From a virus: 41,745 nucleotides of DNA. Where the stretch lies: positions 1 through 41,745 of the IMG/VR virus record IMGVR_UViG_3300006919_010540; one strand, 5' to 3'. Below are positions 2,891 to 41,745 of the stretch, piece after piece. The notes beneath the pieces were generated by a model. That model was not told the origin of the DNA and did not search any database. It saw only the letters and a list, made by a program, of their open reading frames with translations. Both the position numbers and the translations under genes were made by a program. How positions within the stretch are numbered: the stretch's first letter is position 1; the number at the start of each line of letters is the position of its first letter.

Positions 2891-2899
2891 AGATAAAAA

Positions 2900-4510: not shown

Positions 4511-4511
4511 A

Positions 4512-7403: not shown

Positions 7404-7405
7404 TA

Positions 7406-7434: not shown

Positions 7435-7441
7435 AATAAAA

Positions 7442-8134: not shown

Positions 8135-8952
8135 TATTCAGTCTTTATATAGATATTCCAAAAGAAAATTTAGTATCTCATTTTAAAAGTAAAAATAAAT
8201 TTGAGAAAAATTATGAATGGTTATTTCAAAAGAAGTTTTCTTATGCTAAAAAATTAGGAATTGATTTTAGATTTTTTTCTTATGACGAGAAATATGAAAA
8301 TTATTTAAAAGATTTTAAACAAAAATTTCCTCAGGTGCCAGAATATAACATAGTAAATTTTTATAAATTATTTTTATTGTATGAATTATCAAAGGAATAT
8401 GATGAAATACTTTATTTAGATTTTGATGTAATACCTGTAACAAATATAAACTTTTTTGAAGAATGGAATTTAAATAAAGGTGTTGTTATATTTTGTCCTA
8501 CTGAAAGAATAGACAAGAAGGTGAACGAATTAGATACTTTAAAATTAACCTACACGCCTAGATCACCTATTGCTAAATTTTGGACTACTAAATGCTTGTT
8601 AATGGAAAATAATATTAAAGCTGAGCCTCAAGTATTCAATACCGGTATTATTGGTATTAATAGAAAATATCTTAACCAGTTAAATTATTTTGAAAATTTT
8701 TCTGATATTCTTAACAATATATCTAATCTTATGAATGATGATTTCTATCCTAATAGTATTAGAAAACTTTTTAGCCATAATAATGAAGCTATATGGGCTT
8801 ATAAAACTATTATTAATAAAGTAGAATGGCAAGAAATAGGACCTTCTTGGCATCACTTTATGGATAAATGGGATTATATTCCTAAAGATACAAATTTAAT
8901 TCATTGCATAAACAAAAATTTTGAATATGTTAAAGAATGGGAAACTAGGTAA
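8122..8952 (+). CDS. GT-A-fold glycosyltransferase (DxD type), last gene of the cargo operon
   Basis: A 276-residue protein with Glu-Ile-Leu-Tyr-Leu-Asp-Phe-Asp-Val-Ile-Pro at 95-105; Asp100 and Asp102 are the DxD metal/nucleotide-sugar site. Phe-Asn-Thr-Gly-Ile-Ile-Gly-Ile-Asn at 172-180 is the conserved segment after it in GT8/GT32-like enzymes, and Trp-His-His-Phe-Met near 252 may complete the site. No transmembrane segment is seen. It starts inside the methyltransferase gene. The stop (TAA 8950-8952) lies beyond the stop of the convergent minus-strand gene, so the two 3' ends overlap by 8 nt with no room for a terminator. It shares no obvious close similarity with the DxD enzyme at 6690 beyond the fold motifs, so the two probably add different sugars. 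Confidence 0.75.
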   Translation: MRRVIFSLYIDIPKENLVSHFKSKNKFEKNYEWLFQKKFSYAKKLGIDFRFFSYDEKYENYLKDFKQKFPQVPEYNIVNFYKLFLLYELSKEYDEILYLDFDVIPVTNINFFEEWNLNKGVVIFCPTERIDKKVNELDTLKLTYTPRSPIAKFWTTKCLLMENNIKAEPQVFNTGIIGINRKYLNQLNYFENFSDILNNISNLMNDDFYPNSIRKLFSHNNEAIWAYKTIINKVEWQEIGPSWHHFMDKWDYIPKDTNLIHCINKNFEYVKEWETR

Positions 8953-9445
8953 GATTACCTCTATCTACAATTTCCATAGCCACTCTTGTTGCATCACATA
9001 CTGTAGTAGTTTTTCTCAATTTAGCTTTAAGTTCTTTTTTATCTGAATTTTTAATTGGATCTGACTCAAACAAAGCTAGTTTATACATAAACAATCTTTC
9101 AATATCAGAATCGTCGCCAAATAAAATATTATCAACAAACACTTTATAAAATCTACTATTGATAGAATCAACGTCGTAGATTAAGCCTCTCTTCTTTGCA
9201 ATTGTAATAACATCTTTTTCAAAAATAGTATTTTGTTCTCTAATATATTTGTAAGTTGTTTCATGTAATTCATCTTCAGATATATGAGATAAAAGTCTAT
9301 TCCAAGCTGCGTCACCTTGCTTAGCTTCCACAACTTCAATATGAAACATACCGTCCTTATCTAACCATTCAACTTGAACGATACTTCTTTCATTGTTAAT
9401 AAAGTATGCAGTAATAAATTCAAATTCATCGTACTCTTTAATCAT
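8945..9445 (-). CDS. Conserved-looking phage protein of unknown function (166 aa)
   Basis: A 166-residue acidic/basic protein with no signal peptide or membrane segment. The N-terminal third is beta-rich (Phe-Glu-Phe-Ile-Thr-Ala-Tyr-Phe, then Ser-Ile-Val-Gln-Val-Glu-Trp). The middle is helical, and the end carries Phe-Glu-Ser-Asp-Pro-Ile-Lys-Asn-Ser followed by a Lys/Arg-rich helix (Ala-Lys-Leu-Arg-Lys). One Asp-Ser-Asp occurs in Gly-Asp-Asp-Ser-Asp. It is the last gene of the long minus-strand virion block, 8 nt after the 299-aa protein gene, so expression with structural genes is likely. Length is near that of a small terminase subunit (gp16), but I see no sequence support for that. Function not recognised. 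Confidence 0.6.
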   Translation of the reverse strand: MIKEYDEFEFITAYFINNERSIVQVEWLDKDGMFHIEVVEAKQGDAAWNRLLSHISEDELHETTYKYIREQNTIFEKDVITIAKKRGLIYDVDSINSRFYKVFVDNILFGDDSDIERLFMYKLALFESDPIKNSDKKELKAKLRKTTTVCDATRVAMEIVDRGNLT

Positions 9446-9453
9446 AGTAGCCT

Positions 9454-10353: not shown

Positions 10354-10364
10354 AATAACTACCT

Positions 10365-11684
10365 TTAATTGTTACCAGGATTAGGTACGTCACTAGATGT
10401 ATGTAATAAGTATCCTGAAATAACTACTGTACCACTAGCATTTTTTACAGTAAATTTATTTGTATCATCAAAAACATGATTATCAAAAGTAAGATTTCCA
10501 CGAAGTTCTGTGTTACCTTCTACAAGCAAATCTTCTCTTATATGTACATCACCATCAACAGTTAAATCACTATCAATATGAACTGATCCATTAAACTCTG
10601 CATTTTCATCTACAGTTAAACCACCTTTAACATATAAGTCTGAATCAATAGTAACATTATTATTAAAACCTACATCACCATCAAATGTGTTTCCACCAGC
10701 TGTACCTAACAATGAAGTTGAAACTATGGCGCGCCATTCACCCCAAAGATCATTTCCGTTACCATCTGAATCGACTATAACAGCATTAGCTTCTTTTCTT
10801 TCATCTGAATCCATTGCTCTGATAGAAGTTTGAAAATCAGAGTCATCCATAATAGAAGTATCTAACCAGTACAACTTTCCTGATTCAGAATCTCTATTTC
10901 TAATCCAAAAATTACCTGCTGCTAAAGCTTTTTCTGGTGCGGTAGGTTTTATTGTAGGTATATTATTAATTTCAATAATTTGATATTCTTGTCTTGGATT
11001 TCTTTGAGCTATTTTATACCCAATTTCTACTCTACCAGAAAAATCTTTTAAGTATAATTTAGATGTAACATGACTAATTAACCTACCAGTGCCAAACGTT
11101 CTCCTAAAACCTGAAGTAGCTAAATCAAAATCTATAATTGTACTAGCATTTGAATTAGTTAGAGATACAGCTGAGCTCATTTCAACTCTAATAATAGGTT
11201 GATAATAAAAATCTAAATATTTTACAAAATTAGAACTAAATGAAACACTAGAAGAGCTCCCGGTTGTTCTATAAAAAGAAACACTATTAGCATCTGATGT
11301 AACTTGAGCAGCACCAACTTCTGCAATCGCTGCATTTTTAATTTGTAATATAACGTCAGCTATAACACTATCAGAATCTAAAATTAAAGTTTTACTATTT
11401 CCATTAATATTATAGTCTATACTTGCAATATCTGAATCAAAATCAATATCACTAATAGTAATAATATAACCAGCGTTTTCATCAAAACCTGTTACGGTTT
11501 GACCAAAAGTAAATGTGTTATACATTTGTCTTTTAGTATATAACTTTCTTGTTTCAAGGTTAATTGCAATTTCACCTTCAAGTATTTGACTAGCTAGAGG
11601 TTGACCTTCACCGTTAACACCGCTAATTCTAGATCTACGGTGTTGAACAAAACCTCTTTGTACTTGAGTATCACTATCAATCAT
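10365..11684 (-). CDS. Tail fibre-like protein with beta-helical C-terminal stalk
   Basis: A 439-residue protein. The N-terminus (Leu-Glu-Gly-Glu-Ile-Ala-Ile-Asn-Leu-Glu-Thr-Arg-Lys-Leu-Tyr) matches the 'GEiAiNl..g.lf' segment common at the N-termini of phage fibre and tropism-determinant proteins. The middle is beta-rich and includes Asp-Ser-Asp-Gly-Asn-Gly-Asn-x2-Trp. Residues from about 335 carry short repeats of the type Asp-Ser-Asp-Leu-x-Val-x-Gly-(Gly/Asp)-(Leu/Val), as seen in trimeric beta-helical stalks. I count nine Asp-Ser-Asp/Glu motifs. The start overlaps the stop of the 466-aa protein gene by 8 nt. Likely a trimeric fibre or whisker component; receptor role not demonstrable. Confidence 0.7.
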   Translation of the reverse strand: MIDSDTQVQRGFVQHRRSRISGVNGEGQPLASQILEGEIAINLETRKLYTKRQMYNTFTFGQTVTGFDENAGYIITISDIDFDSDIASIDYNINGNSKTLILDSDSVIADVILQIKNAAIAEVGAAQVTSDANSVSFYRTTGSSSSVSFSSNFVKYLDFYYQPIIRVEMSSAVSLTNSNASTIIDFDLATSGFRRTFGTGRLISHVTSKLYLKDFSGRVEIGYKIAQRNPRQEYQIIEINNIPTIKPTAPEKALAAGNFWIRNRDSESGKLYWLDTSIMDDSDFQTSIRAMDSDERKEANAVIVDSDGNGNDLWGEWRAIVSTSLLGTAGGNTFDGDVGFNNNVTIDSDLYVKGGLTVDENAEFNGSVHIDSDLTVDGDVHIREDLLVEGNTELRGNLTFDNHVFDDTNKFTVKNASGTVVISGYLLHTSSDVPNPGNN

Positions 11685-13077
11685 CTACACGTGCTCCTGG
11701 AACTAATAACTGCACCATACCAGGAAATGGTTCGTCAGTAATTAAAAGAATGTTACCGGTCTGGTCAACTATAGAACCAGTAGTAACTTGTTTAAAGACT
11801 TGAGCAGGAGAAGCATCAGCAAAACCGTTATAAATTTTTGGTCTACCTTGGCCATCGGAATCTAAGTCAGGAGAGTTAGAAAACGCTCCGTCTGAATCTC
11901 TACCAAACACTGCTTTAAGTCTTTTAAATGTATCTCTATTAGAAGAAGTTTCTTGTTGTGTATTGATATAATCATACAAGAAACTATTAATTTGAATTAA
12001 AGCTTCTGAATCATACATAGAATTAGTCATTCTTCTATACACTTGAAACACTGGTTGAGATACCGCATCGTCAATATCACTCTGTAGAGTAGAAGGAGCT
12101 ACAGGTAAAATATATTGATTATTTCTTAATTCTAGCTCACCACCGACCGTTAAGTCAGGCTTGTTCCACTGAATCCAGTCTGCTGCTTCAAAATTATCTT
12201 GTCTAGCATTCATAATTTGCTGAGTGCTAATAAGAGTTGTTCTTCTTAATACCCAACCTCTATTTGGACCTTGATAAGTAAAAATTAAAGTGTTATCTTG
12301 TGCAGTACTAAAATTAACAAAAGACCTGCCATCATCAATATCAAATTTTTGCCATAGTTTAGGATAGGTAGTACCAACATCAGAATCAAATTTATCATAG
12401 TTAAAATTAACTCTTTTATAAACAGGGTAATGTTTTACACCTAAATGATCTGTAAGAGAAACAGCATCTGAATCAGGGTACATGCTTTGTGATTCGGGTG
12501 TATGGGTTTTCCATTCTGTAATTTGTTGTGATGATCTAAACTCATAAGGTGTAGTCCAGATAGAAATATTTTTGTGCTGCCATGAAGAAAAAGAATCTCT
12601 TATTTCAACTACATCACCAGCTCTAGCTAGAGGTAATACAAGATGAATTGTTCTACCTTGGGAAACTTCTCTCAGATCAGCTGTAATTCTTTCACCTCGA
12701 GATAAAAAATACCACTCACTATCTCTAAAAATATCAGGTATACCGTCTACGTTAGTGTCAACAAATTCACCTTCACTATCTACACCATAACCAAAATTGT
12801 TAATAGTGTCTCTAGGAGTAGAAGCTCCTCCTGATTTAAAATTAACTATAGTATATTTACCTGCAGGATGTAACTCTCCTACTTTATATTCATAATCTCT
12901 AAACGGTCTTCTGTAACCATAAAAAGCATTATTAGGATCATTTCCTATAGGGTTGTCTCCAAAATTAGAATAAAGATCAGCAAACAGATTATTGATCTTT
13001 AGACCACCTCGTCTAGCTGAATCACCTGTACCCGAATCTGGAGTAGTACCTAAATTAATTAAATCTTTAGAAGCCAT
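11677..13077 (-). CDS. Virion structural protein with N-terminal GTTPDSGTGD motif
   Basis: A 466-residue protein that opens with Leu-Gly-Thr-Thr-Pro-Asp-Ser-Gly-Thr-Gly-Asp, then Leu-Lys-Ile-Asn-Asn-Leu-Phe-Ala-Asp-Leu-Tyr at 26-36. This motif occurs at the N-termini of many phage fibre and baseplate-attached proteins and probably forms the attachment helix. The 255-aa protein at 15013 carries the same motif. The rest is beta-rich with many aromatic residues, and seven Asp-Ser-Asp/Glu motifs are present. The C-terminus (Pro-Gly-Met-Val-Gln-Leu-Leu-Val-Pro-Gly-Ala-Arg) is hydrophobic. It lies directly after gp15, where T4 has gp16/17. AATAAATA stands only 4 nt before its ATG. Likely a neck- or tail-associated structural protein; exact role unknown. 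Confidence 0.65.
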   Translation of the reverse strand: MASKDLINLGTTPDSGTGDSARRGGLKINNLFADLYSNFGDNPIGNDPNNAFYGYRRPFRDYEYKVGELHPAGKYTIVNFKSGGASTPRDTINNFGYGVDSEGEFVDTNVDGIPDIFRDSEWYFLSRGERITADLREVSQGRTIHLVLPLARAGDVVEIRDSFSSWQHKNISIWTTPYEFRSSQQITEWKTHTPESQSMYPDSDAVSLTDHLGVKHYPVYKRVNFNYDKFDSDVGTTYPKLWQKFDIDDGRSFVNFSTAQDNTLIFTYQGPNRGWVLRRTTLISTQQIMNARQDNFEAADWIQWNKPDLTVGGELELRNNQYILPVAPSTLQSDIDDAVSQPVFQVYRRMTNSMYDSEALIQINSFLYDYINTQQETSSNRDTFKRLKAVFGRDSDGAFSNSPDLDSDGQGRPKIYNGFADASPAQVFKQVTTGSIVDQTGNILLITDEPFPGMVQLLVPGARVDD

Positions 13078-13081
13078 ATTT

Positions 13082-13089
13082 TATTTATT
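13082..13089 (-). promoter_or_regulatory. AATAAATA late-promoter-like octamer, unusually close to the ATG
   Basis: In the 14-nt gap after gp15, the minus strand reads AATAAATA ending 4 nt before ATG 13077, a one-base variant of T4 TATAAATA. By T4 spacing, transcription would begin at the start codon itself, giving a leaderless message. The same arrangement precedes gp25. It may instead be an A-rich translation enhancer; no Shine-Dalgarno sequence is present. Confidence 0.35.
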
Positions 13090-13091
13090 AC

Positions 13092-13961
13092 CTAAATTGT
13101 GCTTAGATCTCTCACGATCTTAACTATATTACCATCTGAGTCTGATAAATTTATCACAGAAGGACTAAGATTAGAATCATTGTTTAACACAGCATCTGAA
13201 TCCGTTTGTGTAACTTGAACCCAGCCTACTTCAGAACCCTCTATAGGTTTTAAACCTCTAGATAGTTGATATAATTCTGGAACATTACCATCTGAATCTC
13301 TTGCTGGAATACCTATAATAGCTCTTGAATCATAGATTATATTTGTAGTTGTAGCTGGTCCGTATAACCAAATTTTAGAAGTAAATTCTAAATTCCACTC
13401 TACTATTCTTCTATCACCAATGTCACCTGTCCAGTCATCTGCCCAGGTTGCTGCAGTAAGAATAAAAGGCATATCATATGTGTTAGTTGGAACAGGTGTA
13501 TCACTATCTGCATCCATAGGAAAATTTCTTACTTTTACAGTATATGCTGGTGTAAAGAATGGTAATATTTGTTCTACTATTTGCCACCCATCATTTAAAT
13601 TTTTTGTAGTAATATACATAGTAAAATCTAAATTATAAGGTGTAGGAGAATGAACTCTTTGTCTTGGAATATTTAAAGTATCTGGAGTTCTAATGACTGT
13701 TTGTTTATTAGAAATTTTTCTATCAGTATCATAATTCATAGCTACAATCTCATATGAGATTCTAGGAAGCAATTTTTCAAACATTTCTTCTTCACGTTTA
13801 AATTGTTTTTGAGCTTCTAACCATTTAACTCTAGGTCCATAAGAAATAGGAACCGGAAGAAATTTACCATCTCTTCTTTTAATTACAATATTATTAAACA
13901 AGCTTCCAAACACTGCGACAGCTGTTTTAATACTTTCATTGTAAAAATGTTGACCTATCAT
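13092..13961 (-). CDS. 15: Tail sheath stabiliser / tail completion protein, T4 gp15-like
   Basis: A 289-residue protein (T4 gp15 is 272) recognisable along its length. The start Gly-Gln-His-Phe-Tyr-Asn-Glu-Ser and Gly-Ser-Leu-Phe-Asn-Asn-Ile-Val-Ile-Lys-Arg parallels T4's opening. Next come Val-Pro-Ile-Ser-Tyr-Gly, Leu-Pro-Arg-Ile-Ser-Tyr-Glu, and Gln-Ile-Val-Glu-Gln-Ile-Leu-Pro-Phe-Phe-Thr-Pro, then Arg-Arg-Ile-Val-Glu-Trp-Asn-Leu-Glu-Phe, the most diagnostic parts. gp15 forms a hexameric ring at the head-proximal end of the tail, stabilises the sheath and binds the neck. The gene follows gp14 by a TAATG overlap, keeping T4 order. It has about 60 extra C-terminal residues rich in Asp-Ser-Asp, including Asp-Ser-Asp-Gly twice, that T4 lacks. 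Confident. Confidence 0.92.
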   Translation of the reverse strand: MIGQHFYNESIKTAVAVFGSLFNNIVIKRRDGKFLPVPISYGPRVKWLEAQKQFKREEEMFEKLLPRISYEIVAMNYDTDRKISNKQTVIRTPDTLNIPRQRVHSPTPYNLDFTMYITTKNLNDGWQIVEQILPFFTPAYTVKVRNFPMDADSDTPVPTNTYDMPFILTAATWADDWTGDIGDRRIVEWNLEFTSKIWLYGPATTTNIIYDSRAIIGIPARDSDGNVPELYQLSRGLKPIEGSEVGWVQVTQTDSDAVLNNDSNLSPSVINLSDSDGNIVKIVRDLSTI

Positions 13962-15013
13962 TAAATATCATCCAGATTGTTTATTATTCCAGAATAACCA
14001 AATGCTTCTGCTGTATAGTCTTTAGTAACTACATCACCCTTGTCTCTCAAAGGCTCTCCTTGACTATCATACTTAGTTTCTTTCTGTGATCGCTCTTCAA
14101 TAGCTTTGTTATCTGCCCAAGTATCAAAATGATCATCACTGTCGTCTGCAATATTAAGATTTTGTGAATCTGAATCAGTTAATTCTAATCCTGTCTTGGC
14201 TCTAGCGATAGGTCCTGTATCAGAATCAATAAGATTTTTCTGAGAACCATTTTTATTATATTCCACCACTCTTGGATTAAATTCTAAATCTTCTCCACTA
14301 AGCTCAAACAATCTACATCTTAATTTGTATTGATAGTTATCACCTATTTGATAAAATGCACCATCATGATAAGTAGTAACCCGCAAAATTTCAAACACTT
14401 TAGGAATATATTGTTCTTTATTCTGAGCAGATCTACCAAAAGGTATAACAACTAAATCTCCTTCTAAAGGTCTTGTTCTAGCAAAAGTAATAGCCTCGTC
14501 ACTATCACCATTTGATTTTAAATCAGAATCAAAATTATCATAAAGAGATTCAAACTTAGGTATTGCAACTGACAGAATAACTTCTTCACGGAATTCAATT
14601 CCATAAGTAGTCATTACATCACCTTCACCCTCAAAACCAGCTGCAGCTACAAGTAACACATCCATTTGAAGACCTCTATGAAATCTACTTTCAGGTCTTT
14701 CGTTCCACACTTCATCAGTGTAAGGAGCTGTTCTTGGCATGTACCTTACAGTAATACCATTAATATTAATTGATTCTCTAATTAAATTTTGAACTAATCT
14801 TTGTTCATTTGTTGAGAAACGAGAAGAGGCGCCGAATTGGTTAATGTAGCCATCAATATAAGTATTTCTAACACCTGCAGAGAGGGCATAATCGTCGTTA
14901 ACTTTTTGGATTGATCTGTTGAGATTAACACCGAAGTCTGAGTCATTATCAGCGTTGTTTAGTTCTGTTGTTGACGCAAGTGTAAAACCTGAATAATTGT
15001 TTCTGATTGCCAT
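13961..15013 (-). CDS. 14: Neck protein, T4 gp14-like
   Basis: A 350-residue protein (T4 gp14 is 256). The core has Glu-Gln-Arg-Leu-Val-Gln-Asn-Leu-Ile-Arg-Glu-Ser-Ile, Gly-Ile-Thr-Val-Arg-Tyr-Met-Pro-Arg, Ala-Gly-Phe-Glu-Gly-Glu-Gly-Asp and Tyr-Gly-Ile-Glu-Phe-Arg-Glu-Glu, which match the conserved gp14 block of T4-like cyanophages. Later Gly-Asp-Leu-Val-Val-Ile-Pro and Tyr-Lys-Leu-Arg-Cys-Arg-Leu-Phe-Glu follow. gp14 forms part of the collar joining the capsid portal to the tail. Extra length comes from acidic stretches holding six Asp-Ser-Asp motifs, one near the N-terminus, two around residue 165 and three near 265-292. TAATG overlaps link it to the genes on both sides. No gp13 gene is visible upstream. 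Confidence 0.9.
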   Translation of the reverse strand: MAIRNNYSGFTLASTTELNNADNDSDFGVNLNRSIQKVNDDYALSAGVRNTYIDGYINQFGASSRFSTNEQRLVQNLIRESININGITVRYMPRTAPYTDEVWNERPESRFHRGLQMDVLLVAAAGFEGEGDVMTTYGIEFREEVILSVAIPKFESLYDNFDSDLKSNGDSDEAITFARTRPLEGDLVVIPFGRSAQNKEQYIPKVFEILRVTTYHDGAFYQIGDNYQYKLRCRLFELSGEDLEFNPRVVEYNKNGSQKNLIDSDTGPIARAKTGLELTDSDSQNLNIADDSDDHFDTWADNKAIEERSQKETKYDSQGEPLRDKGDVVTKDYTAEAFGYSGIINNLDDI

Positions 15014-26549: not shown

Positions 26550-28354
26550 TAGATACTACGTGATAGGTTTAAGTTTTTAATTATACTTGTTTCATTTTTT
26601 TCTAAAACATCTACTGATGAACCCTCAGTATCGGTTTGCAATACTATGTTTTCCGTAGCTTGTACATCGAAAGAATCAGGAATAGCTGTAAAAATTATTT
26701 CACCGTCTTGTGGGTTAAAATCCTGTAATTCTACAATTCCTGTTTCATAATTTATAGTTCCAGAGTAAGGAACTACAGTAATTTTTTCATCATCTATAAA
26801 ATCAAACAACCTTATATTACCATAACCATCATCATCAAAGCCTGATCTTACATCTCTGCCTTCTCTAAAAAATAAATTTGAAGTAACAACTCCTCCATTT
26901 TTTGCATTAAAACCATTAGCTGGATGATAAAGTTTATTGGAAAAATTTAAAGTATACTTATCTAAAGTTCCGTTTAAAGCAAAAGTTTTTATTTTTAAAG
27001 ATACTCTTGTATTAGAACTTATTATAGATGAATCAAGTTCTTCTACCTGTTTTGAAAAAAATGATTCAGTAAAATTAGCTAAAAAGTTGCCAATATAGGC
27101 ATTATTAAGATTTCCTATTAAAGATATTATTTTAGACTTTAAAGCATTTCTGTTAGTTACTAGTTTAGTTTCATCAAATATAACTACACTTTTTAAAACT
27201 AAATATATAATTTCTGGATCTACAAATTGTGGTCTTATTGTTACTACGCTACTTTTATTAAGTATTTCAGTAAGTAGAGTGTCTTTAGTAGATGTAGTAA
27301 GCTTGTCTCCTGATTTTGGTTTAATAGCAATAAAAACTTTTCCTGGCTGGTTTACTTTTTCACCACCGTAAACATTTATAGATTGAATGTCTGCAAATTT
27401 ATTAATTAAGAAAGTTTTATAGTCATTTTCAGTAACAGCTCTAAACTGAGATTGAAACCAATGAGGAGCATTATCCTTTATAGACTGTATACTTTCAGGT
27501 GGTTGTCCACCTTGAGAAATATCAGGTGTATTTAAAATAGTAATATCTGTTCTACCTGGTATGTTAATACTAAAAGTTCTAGCGCCGTTAGCTATAGAAC
27601 CAGAAGATTGAATAAAAGTAGCTAAAATTACACTACCTATGCTAGGTTTATTACCTAAAACATTATTACCAAATACTATTCGATGTGTACTATCTTTTGA
27701 TTCTTCTACAAAAAATACTCTTGAATTTTTATCTACTGATGTCATACCTTCTAGTTCTGGTGTAACTTGAGTATATTTTATACCGTTTACACTAACTTTT
27801 AAAGTAGTTGTGTCAATATTAGGTAAGTTTAAATCAAAAGAAGGGTATTCTACTGAAGCGTTATTATTAACAAATCTTTGAGTAAATAATCTACCTTCAT
27901 AAATTTGTACATCAATAGTGCTATTAACTTGACCAGAAACAAAACCTACTGTATAATCTTGAATTGTGTAAAAATTAAATTTAGTGTCACCAGAAGAAGC
28001 AGAGAAAAAAGAACCTGCTGGAATAACATAAAAACCTTCTGAACCTAATCTAGGTACATTTAATTTAATTGTTGTAGAAGAAGACCTAGCTGATCTAGGA
28101 ACATAATTTAAAGATTTAGCTAAAGACACTACGTTACTTCTAATTAAAGAAGTATCTAAAAAAGATTCATTTAACTGAAAATTTGCTGTAAGTGCATTGT
28201 AATGAGTGTTATATGCTAATATATCCATTAACAAGTTTAAACTTGAGCCTGAAAATTCATAGTCAGAAAATTCTGGCCTTTCTTTAAAATAATTTACTAG
28301 ATCATCTTTAATAGATTGAAAATCTAAATCGCTTACTATCGGTCTTTGATCCAT
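26549..28354 (-). CDS. 6: Baseplate wedge protein, T4 gp6-like
   Basis: A 601-residue protein (T4 gp6 is 660), the core wedge subunit that forms the inner ring of the baseplate. The N-terminus is diagnostic: Asp-Leu-Asp-Phe-Gln-Ser-Ile-Lys, Tyr-Glu-Phe-Ser-Gly-Ser-Ser-Leu-Asn-Leu-Leu-Met-Asp-Ile-Leu-Ala-Tyr-Asn-Thr-His-Tyr and Asn-Glu-Ser-Phe-Leu-Asp-Thr-Ser. The baseplate J-like middle has Ala-Pro-His-Trp-Phe-Gln-Ser-Gln-Phe-Arg-Ala-Val-Thr-Glu-Asn-Asp-Tyr-Lys. The gene follows gp25 by TAATG, as in many T4-like genomes, and precedes the gp7-like gene. It contains no Asp-Ser-Asp/Glu motif, in contrast to gp7-like and gp8 next to it. Confident. Confidence 0.95.
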   Translation of the reverse strand: MDQRPIVSDLDFQSIKDDLVNYFKERPEFSDYEFSGSSLNLLMDILAYNTHYNALTANFQLNESFLDTSLIRSNVVSLAKSLNYVPRSARSSSTTIKLNVPRLGSEGFYVIPAGSFFSASSGDTKFNFYTIQDYTVGFVSGQVNSTIDVQIYEGRLFTQRFVNNNASVEYPSFDLNLPNIDTTTLKVSVNGIKYTQVTPELEGMTSVDKNSRVFFVEESKDSTHRIVFGNNVLGNKPSIGSVILATFIQSSGSIANGARTFSINIPGRTDITILNTPDISQGGQPPESIQSIKDNAPHWFQSQFRAVTENDYKTFLINKFADIQSINVYGGEKVNQPGKVFIAIKPKSGDKLTTSTKDTLLTEILNKSSVVTIRPQFVDPEIIYLVLKSVVIFDETKLVTNRNALKSKIISLIGNLNNAYIGNFLANFTESFFSKQVEELDSSIISSNTRVSLKIKTFALNGTLDKYTLNFSNKLYHPANGFNAKNGGVVTSNLFFREGRDVRSGFDDDGYGNIRLFDFIDDEKITVVPYSGTINYETGIVELQDFNPQDGEIIFTAIPDSFDVQATENIVLQTDTEGSSVDVLEKNETSIIKNLNLSRSI

Positions 28355-28761
28355 TATCTAAGCCTTTTAAGTACGGTTTCAAAAGTGTTAACTGTTTTAC
28401 TAGATATAATATTATACACTATAGTAATAAAGTAAGCATTTGTATCAGAATTATCTCTAATTTCAATATCTCTTACTACTATTCTAGGTTCGTAATTTGT
28501 TAATACATCGTTAATAACAGTTTTTAAATCGTTAGCTACTACAGGTGAAATAGGTTCAAATAATATGCTTCTTATATTGCAACCTAATGTGGGTTGAAAA
28601 GGTCTTTCAAAAAAATTAGTGTTAATTAACGTCTTTATGCTTTGCTGTATAGCGTTAACATCACTTTTCGTACCCAAATCACCTGTAATTGGGTTTATAC
28701 TGAAAGACAAGTCAAAGTCTTTGTAAATTTTGGTCTTTTCATATGTTTGTAGTTGTGCCAT
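28354..28761 (-). CDS. 25: Baseplate wedge protein, T4 gp25-like
   Basis: A 135-residue protein (T4 gp25 is 132) of the gp25/lysozyme-like baseplate family, the sheath-initiating wedge component shared with type VI secretion TssE. Asp-Val-Asn-Ala-Ile-Gln-Gln-Ser-Ile-Lys-Thr-Leu-Ile, Glu-Arg-Pro-Phe-Gln-Pro-Thr-Leu-Gly-Cys, Leu-Phe-Glu-Pro and Tyr-Glu-Pro-Arg-Ile are the family landmarks; the Glu-Pro-Arg motif is present. It heads the gp25-gp6-gp7-gp8 block. No Shine-Dalgarno sequence precedes its ATG; AATAAATAAAAC lies directly upstream and a TATAAT at 28795-28790 further up. No Asp-Ser-Asp motif. Confident. Confidence 0.95.
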   Translation of the reverse strand: MAQLQTYEKTKIYKDFDLSFSINPITGDLGTKSDVNAIQQSIKTLINTNFFERPFQPTLGCNIRSILFEPISPVVANDLKTVINDVLTNYEPRIVVRDIEIRDNSDTNAYFITIVYNIISSKTVNTFETVLKRLR

Positions 28762-28765
28762 GTTT

Positions 28766-28784: not shown

Positions 28785-28813
28785 ACTATATTATAGATAA
28801 CCTGCAGGTAAAA

Positions 28814-30790: not shown

Positions 30791-30799
30791 GAGGTCATT

Positions 30800-33700: not shown

Positions 33701-34099
33701 TTACATAGTGTACAAGACGGTGCACTTTCAAGTGTTGGTGGAGTTGTTTATCAATATAACCCTGACACGGTTGCATGGGAACAAGATAGCGATTTAACTA
33801 TTGATAATACTGTTGGCGAAAGAATTTTACATAACCAAATTACACATAAAACATTCTATAACGATCCTGTATCTGATACTACATTTAAAATTATGACTGC
33901 TAGAAAATTTTCTGATGTGTTTACATTACCTGCATTAGTCAGTGAACCTGATTCAGATACTTTAGGTAGAATGGGGTTAAGACCAGGTACATTTGCCATG
34001 GCAGATGGTGTTAGTTGGGATCCAGGTTTTATTGGAGGTACAACACCTTACCCTGTATTTTATGACGGTGTTGCTTGGTATTATTTTAGTTTATATTAA
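30800..34099 (+). CDS. DSD-rich tail fibre-like protein B with lectin-like insert (1099 aa)
   Basis: Paralogue of fibre A with the same N-terminal domain, the same 18-residue repeat and the same C-terminal tip (Arg-Pro-Gly-Thr-Phe, Trp-Asp-Pro-Gly-Phe-Ile-Gly-Gly, Tyr-Pro-Val-Phe-Tyr-Asp-Gly). It is enlarged by two insertions. The first, about 306-503, opens with a Pro/Ala-rich linker and is beta-rich. The second, about 724-970, looks like a concanavalin/LamG-type jelly roll: Asn-Ser-Trp-Ala-Phe-Asp, Tyr-Asp-Asp-Phe-Thr-Phe-Asn-Ser-Thr-Leu, Val-Trp-Ile-Arg-Arg-Lys-Gly-Asp-Asn-Ile-Thr-Ala-Tyr-Cys. This would be a carbohydrate-binding module, fitting a receptor-binding role. I count about 24 Asp-Ser-Asp/Glu motifs. 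GAGGT precedes the ATG. Its stop overlaps that of the convergent endolysin gene within TTAA. Confidence 0.7.
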   Translation: MPGKFHYKNQSQRFDLYTFYALLTKCKIVELLDKNGHTPFDSDTINNNVLDYALQIYKDILDNGIITYFDSDSFRHDSDGSGNNGWNGVTRNASTARVYEPLRKFLYSQSNNNGVDETQDIITTGFSRKYYTIPLSDSEGTVNHINVYSFMKRHLNRWLSYDSFERYKLTKNILTVMQQDSDVSNFFANQFIKACEEDSDLSRRTVEMYSNRLQSDSEVRQEFLKTAITALSGLAPGGDSDSARALTEVVSSVYENDSEVRNEFGDQIVNSLLEDSDQQNELRDIISSTELVVLNAPLVTARQVLPMPAPPAAPFVAGQTVEYIGYSNPNSRQSFYVNVNDALGGAPPPPGSVITPPYYGGSGVVIKDILLAGDLNSPSEFLEFKLIGDSDGAGNIQNNAYDLQDNLNTGFQDDNFNSITGGNTFGGNYFPNFNVTNYLIIDSVGDLGTPGDAYLKFDVYYTPQVGSFVFSSAEQAAGVIFKFKIVFDSDSLISSNPPQSSVSTGSIGDSNTKWSTANFTTLRSDNTKIDNAVRNRIVLINDSEGILYYTTVRAYWAKDSDNDSDFKFVITRLQANVDSKFASLRVKDLEAKGIVHISNDSEQTEIDRLITNNNLFFNDSDGIIYKNKKLIAIDSDKFYDLLIENRGLYTIDSDGVDSVIKDTPVKSEYSWFIGQRGDTYVINPESTDSDSNNLFTRKLVYTSDKVVDSQQELSRALGDVVTKQEVFDTWYRISHRYNGGGTPGTFNYPANSTEQNSWAFDAVNDIIYTTANTTTYCGFISSDTYDDFTFNSTLNAPYVTPSNPDTNDDDVISSIVAFVTEGQFGQPGYREHTLSFIRNHGGFPMLTQNYGSLGPVTWALVYNYNQDDVRLLVNGTSTAPVSTAPWNTSPYGTKVWIRRKGDNITAYCSQMNDSTYTLDSDTEIVWDLASDSDTIKFRGPVRYGYGAHSQNGSYWSDIFFAPDAGSYLHSVQDGALSSVGGVVYQYNPDTVAWEQDSDLTIDNTVGERILHNQITHKTFYNDPVSDTTFKIMTARKFSDVFTLPALVSEPDSDTLGRMGLRPGTFAMADGVSWDPGFIGGTTPYPVFYDGVAWYYFSLY
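31337..31675 (+). repeat. 18-residue DSD helical repeats in fibre B with one 5-residue insertion
   Basis: Asp-Ser-(Asp/Glu) lies at residues 180, 198, 216, 239, 257 and 275. Spacing is 18 except between 216 and 239, where Leu-Ala-Pro-Gly-Gly adds five residues, one probable kink in the helix or loop between units. The register returns to exactly 18 afterwards. Positions match the six units of fibre A one to one. Confidence 0.8.
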
Positions 34100-34542
34100 G
34101 ATAAAAATAGAATTTTTTCGTCGGCTCTTCTTTTAACTAAACCTTTGAGGATTTTTCCTCCAGCTTTTCTCCATTTCCAGAATTCATTTGCGGCGCCTTC
34201 ATAGTCTCTTCTGTTAAGTTTTGCTCTAAGTGTAGACGATTGATAGTTTCCAAGACCCACGTTAAATGAAAAAGACACCAAAGCATCAAATTGACCTTGC
34301 GAAAGATTGACTTTCGTGAGTCTCTCAATACCATCTTCAAAACGCTCAAGATCTTCAAATAATAATTCATCGACTTCTTCATCAGTGAGCACTTTTCCTT
34401 TCCATTCTTTTGAAAGAGATTTACCATCACCAATTAAATGTCCCACCCCAACAGTCCATAAACCGATAGGGTCTTGATAAGGTTTTCTGACAAAACCTTC
34501 ATGGTGTTTTATCATTTTAATGCACTTTTCGCTTACTTTCAT
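34096..34542 (-). CDS. Endolysin, GH24 T4-type lysozyme (muramidase)
   Basis: A 148-residue phage lysozyme that cleaves the MurNAc-GlcNAc bond of peptidoglycan. With the ATG at 34542 the catalytic triad is Glu15, Asp24 and Thr30, with exactly the 9- and 6-residue spacing of T4 lysozyme Glu11, Asp20 and Thr26, within His-His-Glu-Gly-Phe and Trp-Thr-Val-Gly-Val-Gly-His. Phe-Asp-Ala-Leu-Val-Ser-Phe-Ser-Phe-Asn-Val-Gly and the C-terminal Gly-Leu-Val-Lys-Arg-Arg-Ala-Asp-Glu are family blocks. A reading from TTG 34551 adds three residues; ATG is preferred because it forms TAATG with the upstream stop. No signal or anchor sequence, so export must rely on the holin. It lacks Asp-Ser-Asp. Its stop shares TTAA with the stop of the convergent fibre gene. 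Confidence 0.95.
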   Translation of the reverse strand: MKVSEKCIKMIKHHEGFVRKPYQDPIGLWTVGVGHLIGDGKSLSKEWKGKVLTDEEVDELLFEDLERFEDGIERLTKVNLSQGQFDALVSFSFNVGLGNYQSSTLRAKLNRRDYEGAANEFWKWRKAGGKILKGLVKRRADEKILFLS

Positions 34543-34748
34543 TAACTCCAACTTTCTGGATTAGCAGCTCCTCCTGAGCCAGGTGGTGTTATTAAATTTT
34601 CTTCATATCTAATAGATTCATCAGAAGCAGTAATAAACATGTTTTCTTCTACATTTATACCTGTCGCATAATCACTATCATATACATTTTTATAAGTAAC
34701 TATTTCTGTGTTTGTTACCCCTAAAACAGAACCCTCAGCAGATAACAT
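34542..34748 (-). CDS. Small protein of unknown function (68 aa) between adhesin and endolysin
   Basis: A 68-residue protein with one Asp-Ser-Asp (Val-Tyr-Asp-Ser-Asp-Tyr) and a Gly/Pro-rich C-terminus (Pro-Pro-Gly-Ser-Gly-Gly-Ala-Ala). No membrane segment. It starts 6 nt after the 244-aa protein gene and is coupled to the endolysin by TAATG. No clear Shine-Dalgarno sequence. The composition resembles the virion proteins upstream, so it may be a small fibre or tip component; function not recognised. Confidence 0.5.
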   Translation of the reverse strand: MLSAEGSVLGVTNTEIVTYKNVYDSDYATGINVEENMFITASDESIRYEENLITPPGSGGAANPESWS

Positions 34749-34754
34749 TTCAAT

Positions 34755-35489
34755 TTAATGTAAAGTTACACCATAGCTACCTTCTTGTGTTAGATTAAAT
34801 CTTATGTAAGGGTAATTAGATAATAATACACCTCCAGTACCCTCTACAAAATGAATTACTTTATCCCCAGCTACATAAGAGGATGTGTCAATAGGAGACC
34901 CTGAAGTACCTATAGCGGTACCATCACTATCATTAAGTGAGACCCATGTAGTGTTATCAGCTGATTTTTCTAACCAGTAATTAGAACGAGCATCAGATCT
35001 TGTCCATGGTACTACTCTTATTTTCTTTACAGCATTTATTGAAGTGCTAGAAAAATCAAAAGTTAAAGTTTGATTCCCGGAACTACTAGTTAACCAGTAT
35101 GTGTTAACCCCACCGGTTTCAACACCATTAAATAAATATTCCATATTGTAATAGTTAGAGCCATTGGGATATGAACCCGCAGAAGATGTTATTACTAAAC
35201 CGTCTGTTTCATTACCTGTACTAGTGATAGTGTAAACAGTCATTCCAGATGAATTAGAATTCCTACCTGTGTAAAAATCTATTTCAGAATCAGGGCCTGT
35301 TTTATAAAAACCACCATTTAAACTAGTACCATCAGCTGCTAAGTTAAAGTTAGATAGTTGTAAACTATAAGCATCTGCGTAAAAAAAACCTTTTTCTTTA
35401 CTATTAATATACATGTCTAAACTAGACATTAAAGAATACGTAGATTCGCTATCTTTACTACCCGTTAAAACAAAATCAAGGGATGTCAT
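34755..35489 (-). CDS. Adhesin-like virion protein with discoidin-like C-terminal domain
   Basis: A 244-residue protein. The C-terminal ~150 residues resemble an F5/8 type C (discoidin) beta-sandwich: Tyr-Leu-Phe-Asn-Gly near the start, Gln-Thr-Leu-Thr-Phe-Asp-Phe, Ile-Arg-Val-Val-Pro-Trp-Thr-Arg, Tyr-Trp-Leu-Glu-Lys-Ser-Ala-Asp-Asn-Thr-Thr-Trp and a closing Tyr-Ile-Arg-Phe-Asn-Leu strand. Such domains bind carbohydrates or lipids. The N-terminal part has Phe-Val-Leu-Thr-Gly-Ser-Lys-Asp-Ser. Three Asp-Ser-Asp/Glu motifs. AAGGAGAG stands before the ATG and it follows the 665-aa gene by 10 nt. Likely a receptor-binding accessory; domain call is by pattern only. Confidence 0.55.
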   Translation of the reverse strand: MTSLDFVLTGSKDSESTYSLMSSLDMYINSKEKGFFYADAYSLQLSNFNLAADGTSLNGGFYKTGPDSEIDFYTGRNSNSSGMTVYTITSTGNETDGLVITSSAGSYPNGSNYYNMEYLFNGVETGGVNTYWLTSSSGNQTLTFDFSSTSINAVKKIRVVPWTRSDARSNYWLEKSADNTTWVSLNDSDGTAIGTSGSPIDTSSYVAGDKVIHFVEGTGGVLLSNYPYIRFNLTQEGSYGVTLH

Positions 35490-35499
35490 ACGACTCTCC

Positions 35500-37497
35500 T
35501 TAAATAGCTACAGATGCTTTAATTGAAGCAAATCCTGAACCTGTAATAGTAAGAGCCGCTGTAGCTTGTGCACCTGATGCTGTAGTAGTAACTGTAGTGG
35601 TAGTATTACCAGCAAAATTCATAGAATTTCCGGTTATTGTTAATAACACATCTGCTGCAATTCTGTTACCGTAAAAATTAGTAGCAGATACTGTCACGGT
35701 TGTGTTAATATCTGAACCGGTATAATTATAAGTATTTGCTGCTGAAGTTAAAGTAATATTAACAGGTATAGTTTCTTGTAACATATTTACATTACTGTAA
35801 CCGTTACCATCACCTACAATGTACCAAATTCTGTCTCTTTTATCTCTACCTATAGACCAAACCTGACCAGCAATTGTGTGTATATTTACCCAACCGTTAG
35901 TATTATCCCATTTTAAAATATATGTATTTGAGTGACAAATAACTGCCCATAGTTTTCTATAATCATCTAAATATAAATTGTTAATAGGGCATTGAGGCAA
36001 TTGTAGATGACTATGGTAAGTTAATGTATTAGGATCTGCGCTTGAAATTTGATATGAAACTATATTTTTATATGCTTGTGCTAGAGAATCAGCATCATAG
36101 TCTGTTGCGCCTTTTTTACCACTAACATTATACACAGTAAGGTATCTGTTACCAGAATTTTTAATAACTTTACATGGTGTAAAATAAGCGTTGTTAAAAT
36201 ATTCACCGTTGTGTGTATATGCCTGGTAAATAGATTTAAACAAACCTGAAGTATCTGATTTATGATAACCATTATTATTATGTACAATTCTTACATCACT
36301 ATCTCTAGTAAATGTATCTGAGCTAATATCCCATTTAAACAACCACGGGAAGAAATTATGGTTTTCATCAAAGTTAGGAACATACCAACAAACATCTTCT
36401 GAATCTCCTGTTCCCGCTTTAGAATCATCTCTAAACCAGTTTGAAGCTGGAAGATTTATTTCCATGGTTCCAGAATAACCACCTTGTTGATATTCACTAT
36501 CATCTGTCCTTTCTACAGAAAGAGTATTAAAAGATGCAATAGTTGTTACAGAATTTGAAGTAGGGTCATATGTTTTAATTATATGATCTTTATGATTTTG
36601 CGCTTTTCCTCTTAGAAAAATATAAAAGTTAGAGTTATTACCTGTACCGCATGCGTCAGATGTAATGTGTTGCCATCTATAACTAGCTTGAGGATCTGTC
36701 AAATTAGTTGACAAAGCTGCAGTAGAAGGGTCATTACCTGAAGCAACCCAAATAGGTTCATAACCCCATGTATCGTCTGGTCTTCTTGCTGCGTTTGATG
36801 AAGGAGCAGTCGATCTGTTGCCACCACCTATATAGTAACCAGTGCCTCCAACAGTCCAATATCCATGATCTAAAGGTTGATATTCATTACTAAAATTAGT
36901 AGTATAAGCAAAAGGTGTTCTAAAACTACCATCACCAGTTTGTGCAGCATTAGATGTTGAATTTGATGCACCAGCAACAACAGGGTTGTCATGCATATTG
37001 TTACTAGCTCCGCCAGCCCAATATCTTACATTATAGTATCTGTTAAAACCACCAGAAGAGGAAACAATATGTTCATTATTTGATTCATAGTAAATAGCAG
37101 GTCCTCTTACAGCTTGGTTCTTATACATAGGGTCCATATGTCTATGAACCGGTGTTTCACTAAAACCGGTATTCCATTCACTATTTAAAGCTTGGTAAGT
37201 GCCATATGATTGATGTACATGGTGAGGTTGAGCAACACCTTTAGATAGTGCCATCCCATCCATAGTGTATCTACCAATATGCTCATCATAAACATAACCT
37301 TCTGTAGTAGTGTTATATCCAGTAACAGAGTCTGCTCTAACTGAGGATGTAGTGTTTAATAAAGTTTTACCAAAAATGGGAGAGAGTGTTAAATGATCGT
37401 ATGCAAAGCCATCTAAATAAATATAATCTTGTCCGGGTCTTGGATCCTCTACAACGGCTTGTGAGCCGGTTCTAAACGTGTTAAAAATAAGTGCCAT
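35500..37497 (-). CDS. Large adhesin/tail fibre-like protein with propeller-like middle and Ig-like end
   Basis: A 665-residue protein. The N-terminal ~130 residues are His-rich (Pro-His-His-Val-His-Gln, Pro-Val-His-Arg-His-Met). The middle has blade-like repeats (Ile-Ile-Lys-Thr-Tyr-Asp-Pro-Thr-Ser-Asn-Ser-Val; Leu-Phe-Lys-Trp-Asp-Ile-Ser-Ser-Asp-Thr-Phe; Leu-Trp-Ala-Val-Ile-Cys-His; Ile-Trp-Tyr-Ile-Val-Gly-Asp) suggestive of a beta-propeller. The last ~85 residues (Thr-Val-Thr-Val-Ser-Ala-Thr-Asn, Ala-Ala-Leu-Thr-Ile-Thr-Gly-Ser-Gly) look like a bacterial Ig-like domain. Three Asp-Ser-Asp/Glu motifs. TAATG links it to the small upstream gene. Most likely a host-recognition protein; no known homologue named. 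Confidence 0.55.
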   Translation of the reverse strand: MALIFNTFRTGSQAVVEDPRPGQDYIYLDGFAYDHLTLSPIFGKTLLNTTSSVRADSVTGYNTTTEGYVYDEHIGRYTMDGMALSKGVAQPHHVHQSYGTYQALNSEWNTGFSETPVHRHMDPMYKNQAVRGPAIYYESNNEHIVSSSGGFNRYYNVRYWAGGASNNMHDNPVVAGASNSTSNAAQTGDGSFRTPFAYTTNFSNEYQPLDHGYWTVGGTGYYIGGGNRSTAPSSNAARRPDDTWGYEPIWVASGNDPSTAALSTNLTDPQASYRWQHITSDACGTGNNSNFYIFLRGKAQNHKDHIIKTYDPTSNSVTTIASFNTLSVERTDDSEYQQGGYSGTMEINLPASNWFRDDSKAGTGDSEDVCWYVPNFDENHNFFPWLFKWDISSDTFTRDSDVRIVHNNNGYHKSDTSGLFKSIYQAYTHNGEYFNNAYFTPCKVIKNSGNRYLTVYNVSGKKGATDYDADSLAQAYKNIVSYQISSADPNTLTYHSHLQLPQCPINNLYLDDYRKLWAVICHSNTYILKWDNTNGWVNIHTIAGQVWSIGRDKRDRIWYIVGDGNGYSNVNMLQETIPVNITLTSAANTYNYTGSDINTTVTVSATNFYGNRIAADVLLTITGNSMNFAGNTTTTVTTTASGAQATAALTITGSGFASIKASVAI

Positions 37498-37742
37498 TAT
37501 TCAATTCCCTCTTGTTTATTAACCCAAGATTCAACTTCAGATTCATTAGTAAAAGGAAATGCTTTTCCTTTAGGAGTAAAATTAGATCTCATGTTGTAAG
37601 TTGTAGCATTGTCTAAAATATTTCCTTCTGCATCACATTTAAAATACTTACATCCTCCACTAACATTTATAGAAGTGTTGTAATAGATAGTAGTTGCTTC
37701 ACTATCACCTGGATAAGTCTTACTTATAGTAACTATTGCCAT
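37497..37742 (-). CDS. Small protein of unknown function (81 aa)
   Basis: An 81-residue protein: Thr-Ile-Ser-Lys-Thr-Tyr-Pro-Gly-Asp-Ser-Glu at the start, a beta-rich middle with two cysteines (Gly-Gly-Cys-Lys-Tyr-Phe-Lys-Cys-Asp) and an acidic C-terminus. No membrane segment. It has a late-type octamer plus AAAGG ribosome site directly upstream and couples by TAATG to the 665-aa adhesin, so it may be its chaperone or a structural partner. Not recognised. Confidence 0.5.
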   Translation of the reverse strand: MAIVTISKTYPGDSEATTIYYNTSINVSGGCKYFKCDAEGNILDNATTYNMRSNFTPKGKAFPFTNESEVESWVNKQEGIE

Positions 37743-37760
37743 TTAATTAAACCTTTATAT

Positions 37761-37768
37761 TATTTATT
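37761..37768 (-). promoter_or_regulatory. Late-promoter-like octamer before the 81-aa gene
   Basis: AATAAATA on minus overlaps the holin stop codon and ends 18 nt before ATG 37742. A predicted start near 37755 falls at AAAGG, giving a 13-nt leader. Same layout as at 21738 and 38234. Confidence 0.55.
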
Positions 37769-38216: not shown

Positions 38217-38233
38217 AATCTAACTCCTTTTAT

Positions 38234-38241
38234 TATTTATT
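38234..38241 (-). promoter_or_regulatory. Late-promoter-like octamer before the holin gene
   Basis: AATAAATA on minus overlaps the stop of the 750-aa gene and ends 17 nt before ATG 38216. The predicted transcript start near 38228 coincides with AAAGGAG, the ribosome site. This would give the lysis gene its own late transcript with a 12-nt leader. Confidence 0.6.
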
Positions 38242-40492: not shown

Positions 40493-40494
40493 AA

Positions 40495-40791
40495 TTAACC
40501 TCCAGCAAACACATTAGGAGAACCAGAAGCCGAAGCATTTGGAACCCAAGAACCGTGACCACCAGTACTGTCACCTAATCTATGTACGCTTATATTATTA
40601 ACATAAACAGTACTACTACCCCCTGTTGCAGGATCACCACAACTAGTTGTATCTCCTACTCTAACAGTCTTGGCATTATTAGTAAATACGTTTGGAGAAC
40701 CAACTGCATATGCTGTCTGATGAAATGGATTTGGTGTAGGTGAAGCATGACCTACATGACTATCTAAACCTACTCTAGTTACTGCTGGCAT
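40495..40791 (-). CDS. PAAR-repeat spike tip protein (T4 gp5.4-like)
   Basis: A 98-residue PAAR protein, the sharp cone that caps the beta-helical membrane-piercing spike. It has the Gly-Asp-x2-Ser/Thr-Cys-Gly pattern (Val-Gly-Asp-Thr-Thr-Ser-Cys-Gly at 45-52), Val-Tyr-Val-Asn-Asn-Ile-Ser-Val-His-Arg-Leu-Gly-Asp at 62-74 and Gly-Gly-His-Gly at 77-80. His15, Cys51, His70 and His79 are candidate zinc ligands. Gly-Ser-Pro-Asn-Val-Phe occurs twice (31-36 and 90-95), as in many PAAR proteins. The ATG overlaps the gp5 stop as TAATG, and the spike directly precedes it, as expected for stoichiometric tip assembly. Confidence 0.9.
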   Translation of the reverse strand: MPAVTRVGLDSHVGHASPTPNPFHQTAYAVGSPNVFTNNAKTVRVGDTTSCGDPATGGSSTVYVNNISVHRLGDSTGGHGSWVPNASASGSPNVFAGG

Positions 40792-41745
40792 TAATTTAAA
40801 TCTATCCTCGCTGCATCTACATCTAAATTACCTACAATTGTTGTAGTTTGATTACCATTAACATTCTCTGTTACATTTCCAGAACCACTAGTACCTACAG
40901 AAACTGTTTTATTTTTATCTACATCTGTTATCATATTAGATTCTGTTTCAATAGTTAGATCTTTAGTCGATTTAATATCTAATGTACCAGTAACTGCTTT
41001 GTTTTCATTTCCAATTGTAATTAGATCTGTGTTACCAATAACAACTCTTCCATAATCTTTTTTAATTGTTCTTTCTTCATTACCGGTAATAGTAGTTCTC
41101 ATATCTGAATCTACAATTCTTAATTCCATACCACCTATACGTTGAGTGTAATCATCAGTAACGTTACTTACAAAATCATTTCCTGTTTCTTTAAATTCAG
41201 AATTTTTAATTTTAGTATGTTTTGAACCTTTAATATTTTGAGTGTAATCACCCTCGACTTCTAAATGATAATTTCCTTTTACTAACATTCTTACATCTTG
41301 ATCTACAGTAATGTTCATATTACCTTTTACATATAAATTGTTACCTTTAAGTATAAGTTGATAATTATCTCCTACGATAGTTTCTGTTTTATTACCGCTA
41401 GCATTTATTTCGTAATTAGTACCTGAAGTATGAAACTGAGCAAGTCTTTCATTAGTAGGTGTATCGTCTATTTCAATAGTATGACCTGATTCAGAAGCTA
41501 AAACTTTGTTAAAAGGGTAACTGGTAGAACTACCTTCCATAACATCTGGTGTAGACCATGTTTGTCTATTGTAATAAGAATCATCTTTGTCTTCTGCTAC
41601 AGTAGTAACTTTTGGAGGTATTGCTGTTTCAATATCTTCTACTCTTATATCTGCTCTGGTAAAATAAGAAGGATGTTCTTTGTAATTAAAAGTTGCTGAA
41701 AAAGGTTGATCATTATCATATATTGTACTGTAAGGATGCACACCA
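40791..41745 (-). CDS. 5: Baseplate hub spike, T4 gp5-like C-terminal part (5' end beyond window)
   Basis: At least 316 residues of a VgrG/gp5-type spike; the reading frame stays open to the window edge, so the true start lies outside. Tyr-Pro-Phe-Asn-Lys-Val, then Glu-Ser-Gly-His-Thr-Ile-Glu-Ile-Asp-Asp-Thr-Pro and Asn-Glu-Arg matches the T4 gp5 segment at the base of the needle. From about residue 130 a long series of short beta repeats (Val-Lys-Gly-Asn-Met-Asn-Ile-Thr-Val, Val-Lys-Gly-Asn-Tyr-His-Leu-Glu-Val, Val-Glu-Gly-Asp-Tyr-Thr-Gln) forms the triple beta-helix that pierces the outer membrane. The visible part shows no lysozyme domain; any would lie upstream. One Asp-Ser-Asp. A GTG at 41741 could be misread as a start. 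Confidence 0.9.
   Translation of the reverse strand, partial: GVHPYSTIYDNDQPFSATFNYKEHPSYFTRADIRVEDIETAIPPKVTTVAEDKDDSYYNRQTWSTPDVMEGSSTSYPFNKVLASESGHTIEIDDTPTNERLAQFHTSGTNYEINASGNKTETIVGDNYQLILKGNNLYVKGNMNITVDQDVRMLVKGNYHLEVEGDYTQNIKGSKHTKIKNSEFKETGNDFVSNVTDDYTQRIGGMELRIVDSDMRTTITGNEERTIKKDYGRVVIGNTDLITIGNENKAVTGTLDIKSTKDLTIETESNMITDVDKNKTVSVGTSGSGNVTENVNGNQTTTIVGNLDVDAARIDLN

Follow-up and report, generated by a model that had tools for sequence, protein, structure and literature searches.

Known systems and the stretch analysed

In Staphylococcus aureus, SdgB O-GlcNAcylates a minimal peptide of three residues, DSD (PMC8561734). Among phages, pelagimyophages carry a host recognition cluster with glycosyltransferases beside their fibres, for which the published reading is modification of the host O-chain (PMC7029224), and for mycobacteriophage Maravista it has been suggested that phage-encoded glycosyltransferases glycosylate the phage's own capsid (PMC11256854). 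Here we analyse a related tripeptide, Asp-Ser-(Asp/Glu) (DS[DE]), that recurs through the outer tail proteins encoded by a viral DNA of 41,745 nucleotides (IMG/VR record IMGVR_UViG_3300006919_010540, positions 1 to 41,745), referred to as a whole as the window. An earlier note, made from the letters of the window alone, had described the tripeptide as spread through virion proteins and as having no known description. The open-access literature searched likewise yielded no description of it and no paper containing both Asp-Ser-Asp and bacteriophage; no such lineage-wide sequon is described there for any phage. The window encodes T4-type gp5, gp6, gp8, gp14, gp15 and gp25, and its relatives encode gp18, gp20 and gp23, a gene content that identifies the phage as a T4-like myophage of the Kyanoviridae.

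Enrichment of the tripeptide in the window

Translations of every open reading frame (ORF) in the window were searched for DS[DE], and the tally was compared with shuffles of each protein. The virion block contains 112 copies, compared with about 9.5 expected, and the earlier hand counts for individual proteins, which had totalled near 110, proved exact to the unit. Most of the rich proteins lie 10- to 20-fold above their own shuffles (Table 1). The excess is modest in the DUF4815 and 665-aa (amino acid) proteins; in gp5 and the 255-, 166- and 68-aa proteins it does not reach significance. No copy is present in the translations of the eleven cargo ORFs, the lysozyme, the 150-aa holin-like protein, gp6, gp25 or the 299- and 750-aa proteins, exactly as previously stated for this set.

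DSD, the minimal acceptor of SdgB, and DSE are the most over-represented tripeptides of the virion block (75 versus 5.9 expected, z 28, and 37 versus 3.5, z 18, respectively). Near-miss words are rare, with a single DTD for five expected and one copy each of ESD and ESE, while the extended word DSDG occurs 14 times for 0.4 expected. Most sites are isolated, with spacings of at least 6 residues, and a spacing of 2 occurs in nine cases only; in the motif-bearing tail proteins the sites stand singly and do not form a contiguous Ser-Asp repeat domain.

Restriction to one phage lineage

Relatives were drawn from IMG/VR using fibre A, gp6, terminase and gp14, and all contigs of the resulting clade are genome fragments. 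Enrichment is bimodal with respect to gp6: contigs with identities of at least 63% exceed the expected DS[DE] count 9- to 14-fold, and those at 38% or below scatter around chance. Every contig with a gp14 identity of at least 59% is 7- to 18-fold enriched, and four longer close contigs together with eight more (the longest of 108.9 kb) bear similar numbers in the same proteins. In the sheath tree the motif-bearing proteins form one group with a support of 100/100, and DS[DE] is a trait of this lineage of uncultured, aquatic T4-like phages, with a single origin on that tree.

Other marine T4-like phages do not share this pattern. Pelagibacter phage HTVC008M contains 17 copies versus 19 expected over 100 kb, Pelagibacter phage Mosig shows no excess, and Methylophilales phage Melnitz and Synechococcus phage S-WAM1 are at or near chance, as are gp6 relatives outside the clade. 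A general trait of marine T4-like phages is rejected on these grounds, and the absence from homologues in related marine myoviruses that the earlier note had set as a check is borne out. When the comparison was widened beyond this group of phages by searching for three spaced GATTCAGAT as exact DNA, multi-protein enrichment emerged in this clade only; the other strong GATTCAGAT matches had a single enriched protein each, the pattern being narrow and the scan not exhaustive. A host search in genome contigs returned no gp14 relative and two remote terminase matches only, neither with motif excess.

Tripeptide scans of whole regions in other T4-like loci detected no dispersed motif as strong, the top words there being glycine-rich or repeat-like. 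A milder excess of Ala-Asn-Thr (z 7-10), which may reflect a repeat family, was seen in the T4-like loci L027, L146, L149, L150 and L166, which lack DS[DE]. The head-module loci L114, L123 and L128 were enriched in MDE/DMD or EMA-type words, which may derive from an acidic prohead scaffold.

Specificity and turnover of the motif

A compositional or DNA-level origin, through a bias of the proteins towards Ser and acidic residues or through expansion of a DNA repeat, can be virtually dismissed. D and S content is indeed high in the rich proteins, but their shuffles yield about a tenth of the copies or less, and proteins that are acidic or rich in Ser, such as the gp22 scaffold and gp6, are devoid of the motif. 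A DNA word or repeat is likewise rejected, since the signal belongs to the reading frame only and is spelled by many codon combinations. In clade genes the motif-coding word occurs 1,471 times in frame, compared with 23 in the other two sense frames and 67 in antisense, and in the window TCA, TCT and AGT are each common for Ser. Variable codons had been the stated reason for keeping DS[DE] as a peptide rather than a DNA word, and this choice is upheld by the in-frame bias together with Ser-codon switches between TCN and AGY, found in 51 of 151 conserved pairs between distant clade members.

Consensus and flank statistics from dereplicated outer proteins of the clade define the motif as D-S-[DE]. 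At position 3, D is enriched 16-fold and E 11-fold, with every other residue at 1.9-fold or less; at the middle position S reaches 14-fold and T 0.5-fold, without enrichment of Asn, Gly or Asp, and across the whole tripeptide no further residue exceeds 1.9-fold. Pro directly follows the motif in 2 of 598 cases, compared with 3.3% after other acidic residues (P 4e-7), whereas Gly is favoured there (2.25-fold), and extra acidic residues are depleted nearby.

Conservation was assessed across related sequence pairs, which are not independent events. Close contigs retain 96% of their sites (209 of 217) versus 40% of comparable polar tripeptides; among distant members the values are 50% and 11%, and D and E swap freely at position 3. 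Exactly two of the three residues are retained in 4% of comparisons, compared with 27% for control tripeptides, and where both acids persist the middle residue is Ser in 3,602 of 3,662 instances and Thr in eight. Motif density is maintained while positions turn over. DS[DE] sites are therefore gained and lost as a unit, under strong selection at the peptide level, a pattern that, as read from the sequences, is typical of sequons and strict linear motifs and not of structural elements.

Several readings of the tripeptide can be weighed against these data. Phosphorylation of the Ser, or another non-glycan modification, would suit an acidophilic kinase given the acidic residue on each side; this is improbable, as D before the Ser is required while further surrounding acids are depleted, kinases usually accept Thr, and inspection of the cargo revealed no kinase gene. 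Divalent-cation sites, in which DS[DE] loops would stiffen or bridge tail parts, are suggested by the two carboxylates and the hydroxyl and by the frequency of DSDG, which resembles calcium-loop cores. Cation loops, however, use D-x-[DN] with x largely free, and DND, DGD, DAD and DTD are not enriched here; a metal site has no need of Ser specifically, and we regard this reading as very improbable. We see a slim chance that the motif is a favoured local structure, a helix N-cap or beta-turn reused in exposed loops. It precedes 18-residue, helical-looking fibre units (a low-confidence observation), and the preference for Gly and exclusion of Pro at the next residue would be compatible with a turn, but Ser is not replaced by Thr, Asn, Asp or Gly, each of which serves well as a cap or in a turn, homologues of the same families manage without the motif, and its contexts range over disordered loops, helix starts and hairpins. 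Neither the cation-site nor the turn or cap reading accounts for the exclusive use of Ser. The earlier proposal of a shared binding, capping or modification site thus appears right in kind as far as binding or modification is concerned, whereas capping is weakened because Thr, Asn, Gly and Asp are not enriched mid-motif and site turnover is all-or-none.

Location on the virion

Clade proteins were classed by homology to Mosig proteins. The outer tail (sheath gp18, gp13, gp14, gp15, gp7, gp8 and DUF4815) contains 483 DS[DE] versus 39 expected, or 10.96 per 1,000 aa, compared with 13 versus 10.8 (0.84) in the inner tail, 5 versus 7.1 (0.63) in the head and 2 versus 9.5 (0.15) in replication and packaging enzymes. 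The predicted excess over shuffles in structural but not enzymatic proteins is therefore found both in the window and across these classes. The attribution to virion proteins in general has to be narrowed: in clade contigs the motif is confined to the sheath, neck, outer baseplate, gp10-like proteins and fibres, and is absent or at chance level in the portal, capsid, tube and hub. Fibres adjoining the terminase reach 43 to 45 copies per protein.

Within proteins, the sites tend to occupy lineage-specific segments, as had been suggested. Three of the four copies in gp15 lie in a C-terminal extension past the T4 gp15 domain, and those of the sheath fall only in its variable region (residues 97 to 305), with none in the conserved core. 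An AlphaFold2 model of the sheath (pLDDT 82) adopts the T4 gp18 fold, with Z scores of 35 to T4 gp18 and 41 to a Klebsiella phage sheath, and places all five sites in coil within residues 101-285, matching T4 gp18 domains I and II. In T4 these domains, the protease-resistant part of gp18, are solution-exposed, and domain I protrudes outwards (PMC3004832). For this one protein the DS[DE] sites are accordingly solvent-exposed in the model; the fibre A model was of no use (pLDDT 39).

The strongest rival explanation is a docking motif, whereby one phage or host protein, such as a small decoration protein, a chaperone of assembly or a partner that keeps the fibres folded against sheath and neck, would bind DS[DE] wherever it is exposed. 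It accords with a strict tripeptide in exposed loops, located precisely where retracted fibres could make contact, T4 gp18 domain I being known to bind retracted long fibres (PMC3004832), and with a density kept despite positional turnover. We nevertheless judge it unlikely. No lineage-specific, motif-free gene stands out as a reader of the motif, since widespread families without an outgroup match carry it themselves, save the lysozyme, a ClpX-like AAA+ protein and a 75-aa protein. Where a linear motif sits in a binding pocket, moreover, Ser/Thr exchange and other conservative changes are usually tolerated.

A proposed sequon on the tail exterior

Our preferred interpretation is that D-S-[DE]-{P} is a sequon, most likely for Ser O-glycosylation on the tail exterior; from the sequence patterns and by analogy with known acceptor sites, we consider the chances about even. 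This short acceptor site would be recognised in late proteins wherever a segment is exposed and flexible, and it would have been multiplied in the lineage over the contractile tail exterior, neck, baseplate periphery and fibres. A glycosyltransferase encoded by phage or host would attach the sugar to the Ser hydroxyl in the host cytoplasm, either ahead of assembly or while it proceeds. The outcome would be a tail glycan coat of about 11 sites per 1,000 residues, with possible roles such as tail shielding or adsorption tuning. In a broader formulation, which we find evenly balanced between acceptance and doubt, the tripeptide sequon acts as a virion-wide surface code shared by about a dozen unrelated outer tail families, whose Ser is modified or engaged by a single phage or host activity, which would leave the entire contractile tail and the fibres coated.

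Two glycosyltransferase genes that adjoin the tail genes, a GT8 member and a member of PHROG 1962, are candidates for this activity, the latter with a match in 8 of the 11 clade contigs searched; GT2 families had no match in clade contigs. The cargo also encodes a DegT sugar aminotransferase, a nitroreductase-like protein, two radical SAM proteins, a carbamoyltransferase and a methyltransferase-like protein, and beyond the two glycosyltransferases it could possibly serve nucleotide-sugar supply. The modifying enzyme may, alternatively, be encoded by the host.

Several observations weigh against glycosylation. PHROG 1962 and much of the cargo are also present in Mosig, which is motif-free; gene-family comparison with outgroups revealed no lineage-specific transferase, and an SdgB-type GT-B (PF00534), the enzyme type of the staphylococcal system, had no match in 11 clade contigs, the contigs in both searches being fragments. 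The major capsid protein is exposed yet carries 0 or 1 DS[DE], so that the rule concerns the tail exterior rather than all exterior surfaces. Avoidance of the motif in non-virion proteins is not clear (6 seen, 11.3 expected, P 0.07), and the clade yielded no isolate, fibre A being unmatched among 50,697 phage records and the nearest sheaths about 47% identical. Finally, the sequence signature of a docking motif would be much the same as that of a sequon.

If the serines are glycosylated, the tail of this lineage would bear a dense glycan coat encoded in sequence, a sequence rule would be available to find modified virions in metagenomes, and the glycosyltransferases so frequent among marine T4-like phages may target the virion itself besides the host envelope. 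If DS[DE] is instead a docking motif, a single linear code across virion proteins of unrelated fold would be equally unusual. Under either reading the motif marks one lineage and supplies 112 precise sites in the window alone.

Gene content of the window and its relatives

Table 1. Features of the window, with DS[DE] counts and the numbers expected from shuffles of each protein.
Feature	Position	Strand	DS[DE]	Expected	Remarks
Rest of cargo operon	155..8134	+	0		
PHROG 1962 glycosyltransferase family member	6690..7403	+			putative modifying enzyme
GT8 glycosyltransferase	8122..8952	+			putative modifying enzyme
166-aa protein	8945..9445	-	1		chance level
439-aa tail-fibre-like protein	10365..11684	-	9	0.57	
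466-aa protein	11677..13077	-	7	0.47	T4 gp9/gp10-like N-terminus
gp15 tail sheath stabiliser	13092..13961	-	4	0.19	
gp14 neck protein	13961..15013	-	6	0.40	
255-aa protein	15013..15780	-	1		between DUF4815 and gp14; 4-5 copies in some distant clade members
DUF4815 (VrlC-like) protein, 1921 aa	15954..21719	-	5	1.28	P 0.006; 5 of 5 sites kept in three relatives versus 36% of other tripeptides
gp8 baseplate wedge	21745..23184	-	7	0.47	
gp7-like baseplate wedge protein, 1122 aa	23181..26549	-	18	1.23	PHROG baseplate wedge subunit
gp6 baseplate wedge	26549..28354	-	0		internal control
gp25 baseplate wedge	28354..28761	-	0		internal control
Fibre A, 658 aa	28814..30790	+	21	0.96	6 copies open successive 18-residue units (residues 181-273)
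Fibre B, 1099 aa	30800..34099	+	24	1.26	fibre A paralogue, 49% identical
Phage lysozyme	34096..34551	-	0		control
68-aa protein	34542..34748	-	1		chance level
244-aa adhesin-like protein	34755..35489	-	3		
665-aa adhesin-like protein	35500..37497	-	3	0.34	
81-aa protein	37497..37742	-	1		borderline, P 0.03
gp5-like spike	40791..41744	-	1		cut by window end; clade-conserved, chance level

Gene content varies among clade members. Contig G002 (L098/L099) lacks the genes for the 68-, 244-, 665- and 81-aa proteins, which in the window lie between lysozyme and holin (34542-37742), revealing a variable adhesin slot. Beside a replication module, L103 (G004) carries four tandem paralogues of ~850 aa (1174-11386; 38-47% identical, 4-6 DS[DE] each) that are probably surface adhesins. 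The ClpX-like AAA+ protein (378 aa) is encoded near baseplate hub genes (L095, 1133-2275; L102, 17397-18530), is 78% identical between clade members and had no match in sampled outgroup loci.

Comparison with described systems

N-glycosylation sequons, N-X-S/T, resemble DS[DE] in their short consensus, exclusion of Pro, gain and loss as a unit and placement in exposed loops. They differ in the residues involved; DS[DE] does not use Thr and would be modified in the bacterial cytoplasm.

Mosig EXVC030M and HTVC008M are likewise T4-like marine phages of the Kyanoviridae, but their proteins, unlike those of the window lineage, show no DS[DE] excess. As in the window, cargo genes stand next to tail genes in Mosig. 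The window operon (155-8952) has its counterpart at 60990-71305 of Mosig; identities are 39-62% for most of its genes, compared with about 23-36% for many structural genes, and this higher identity of the cargo suggests its transfer between lineages. The Maravista proposal similarly involves phage enzymes acting on their own virion; the target there is the capsid, which is motif-free here, and the abstract describing it mentions no scattered tripeptide (PMC11256854).

The closest likeness in the acceptor itself is to the glycosylation of staphylococcal Ser-Asp repeats (SDR) by SdgB and SdgA, where the acceptor Ser is also flanked by Asp (PMC8561734, PMC3794999). The phage motif, unlike the staphylococcal one, accepts Glu at position 3, and while the target of SdgB and SdgA in cell-wall adhesins is a single unbroken domain of Ser-Asp repeats, the phage sites are single and scattered over many unrelated tail proteins.

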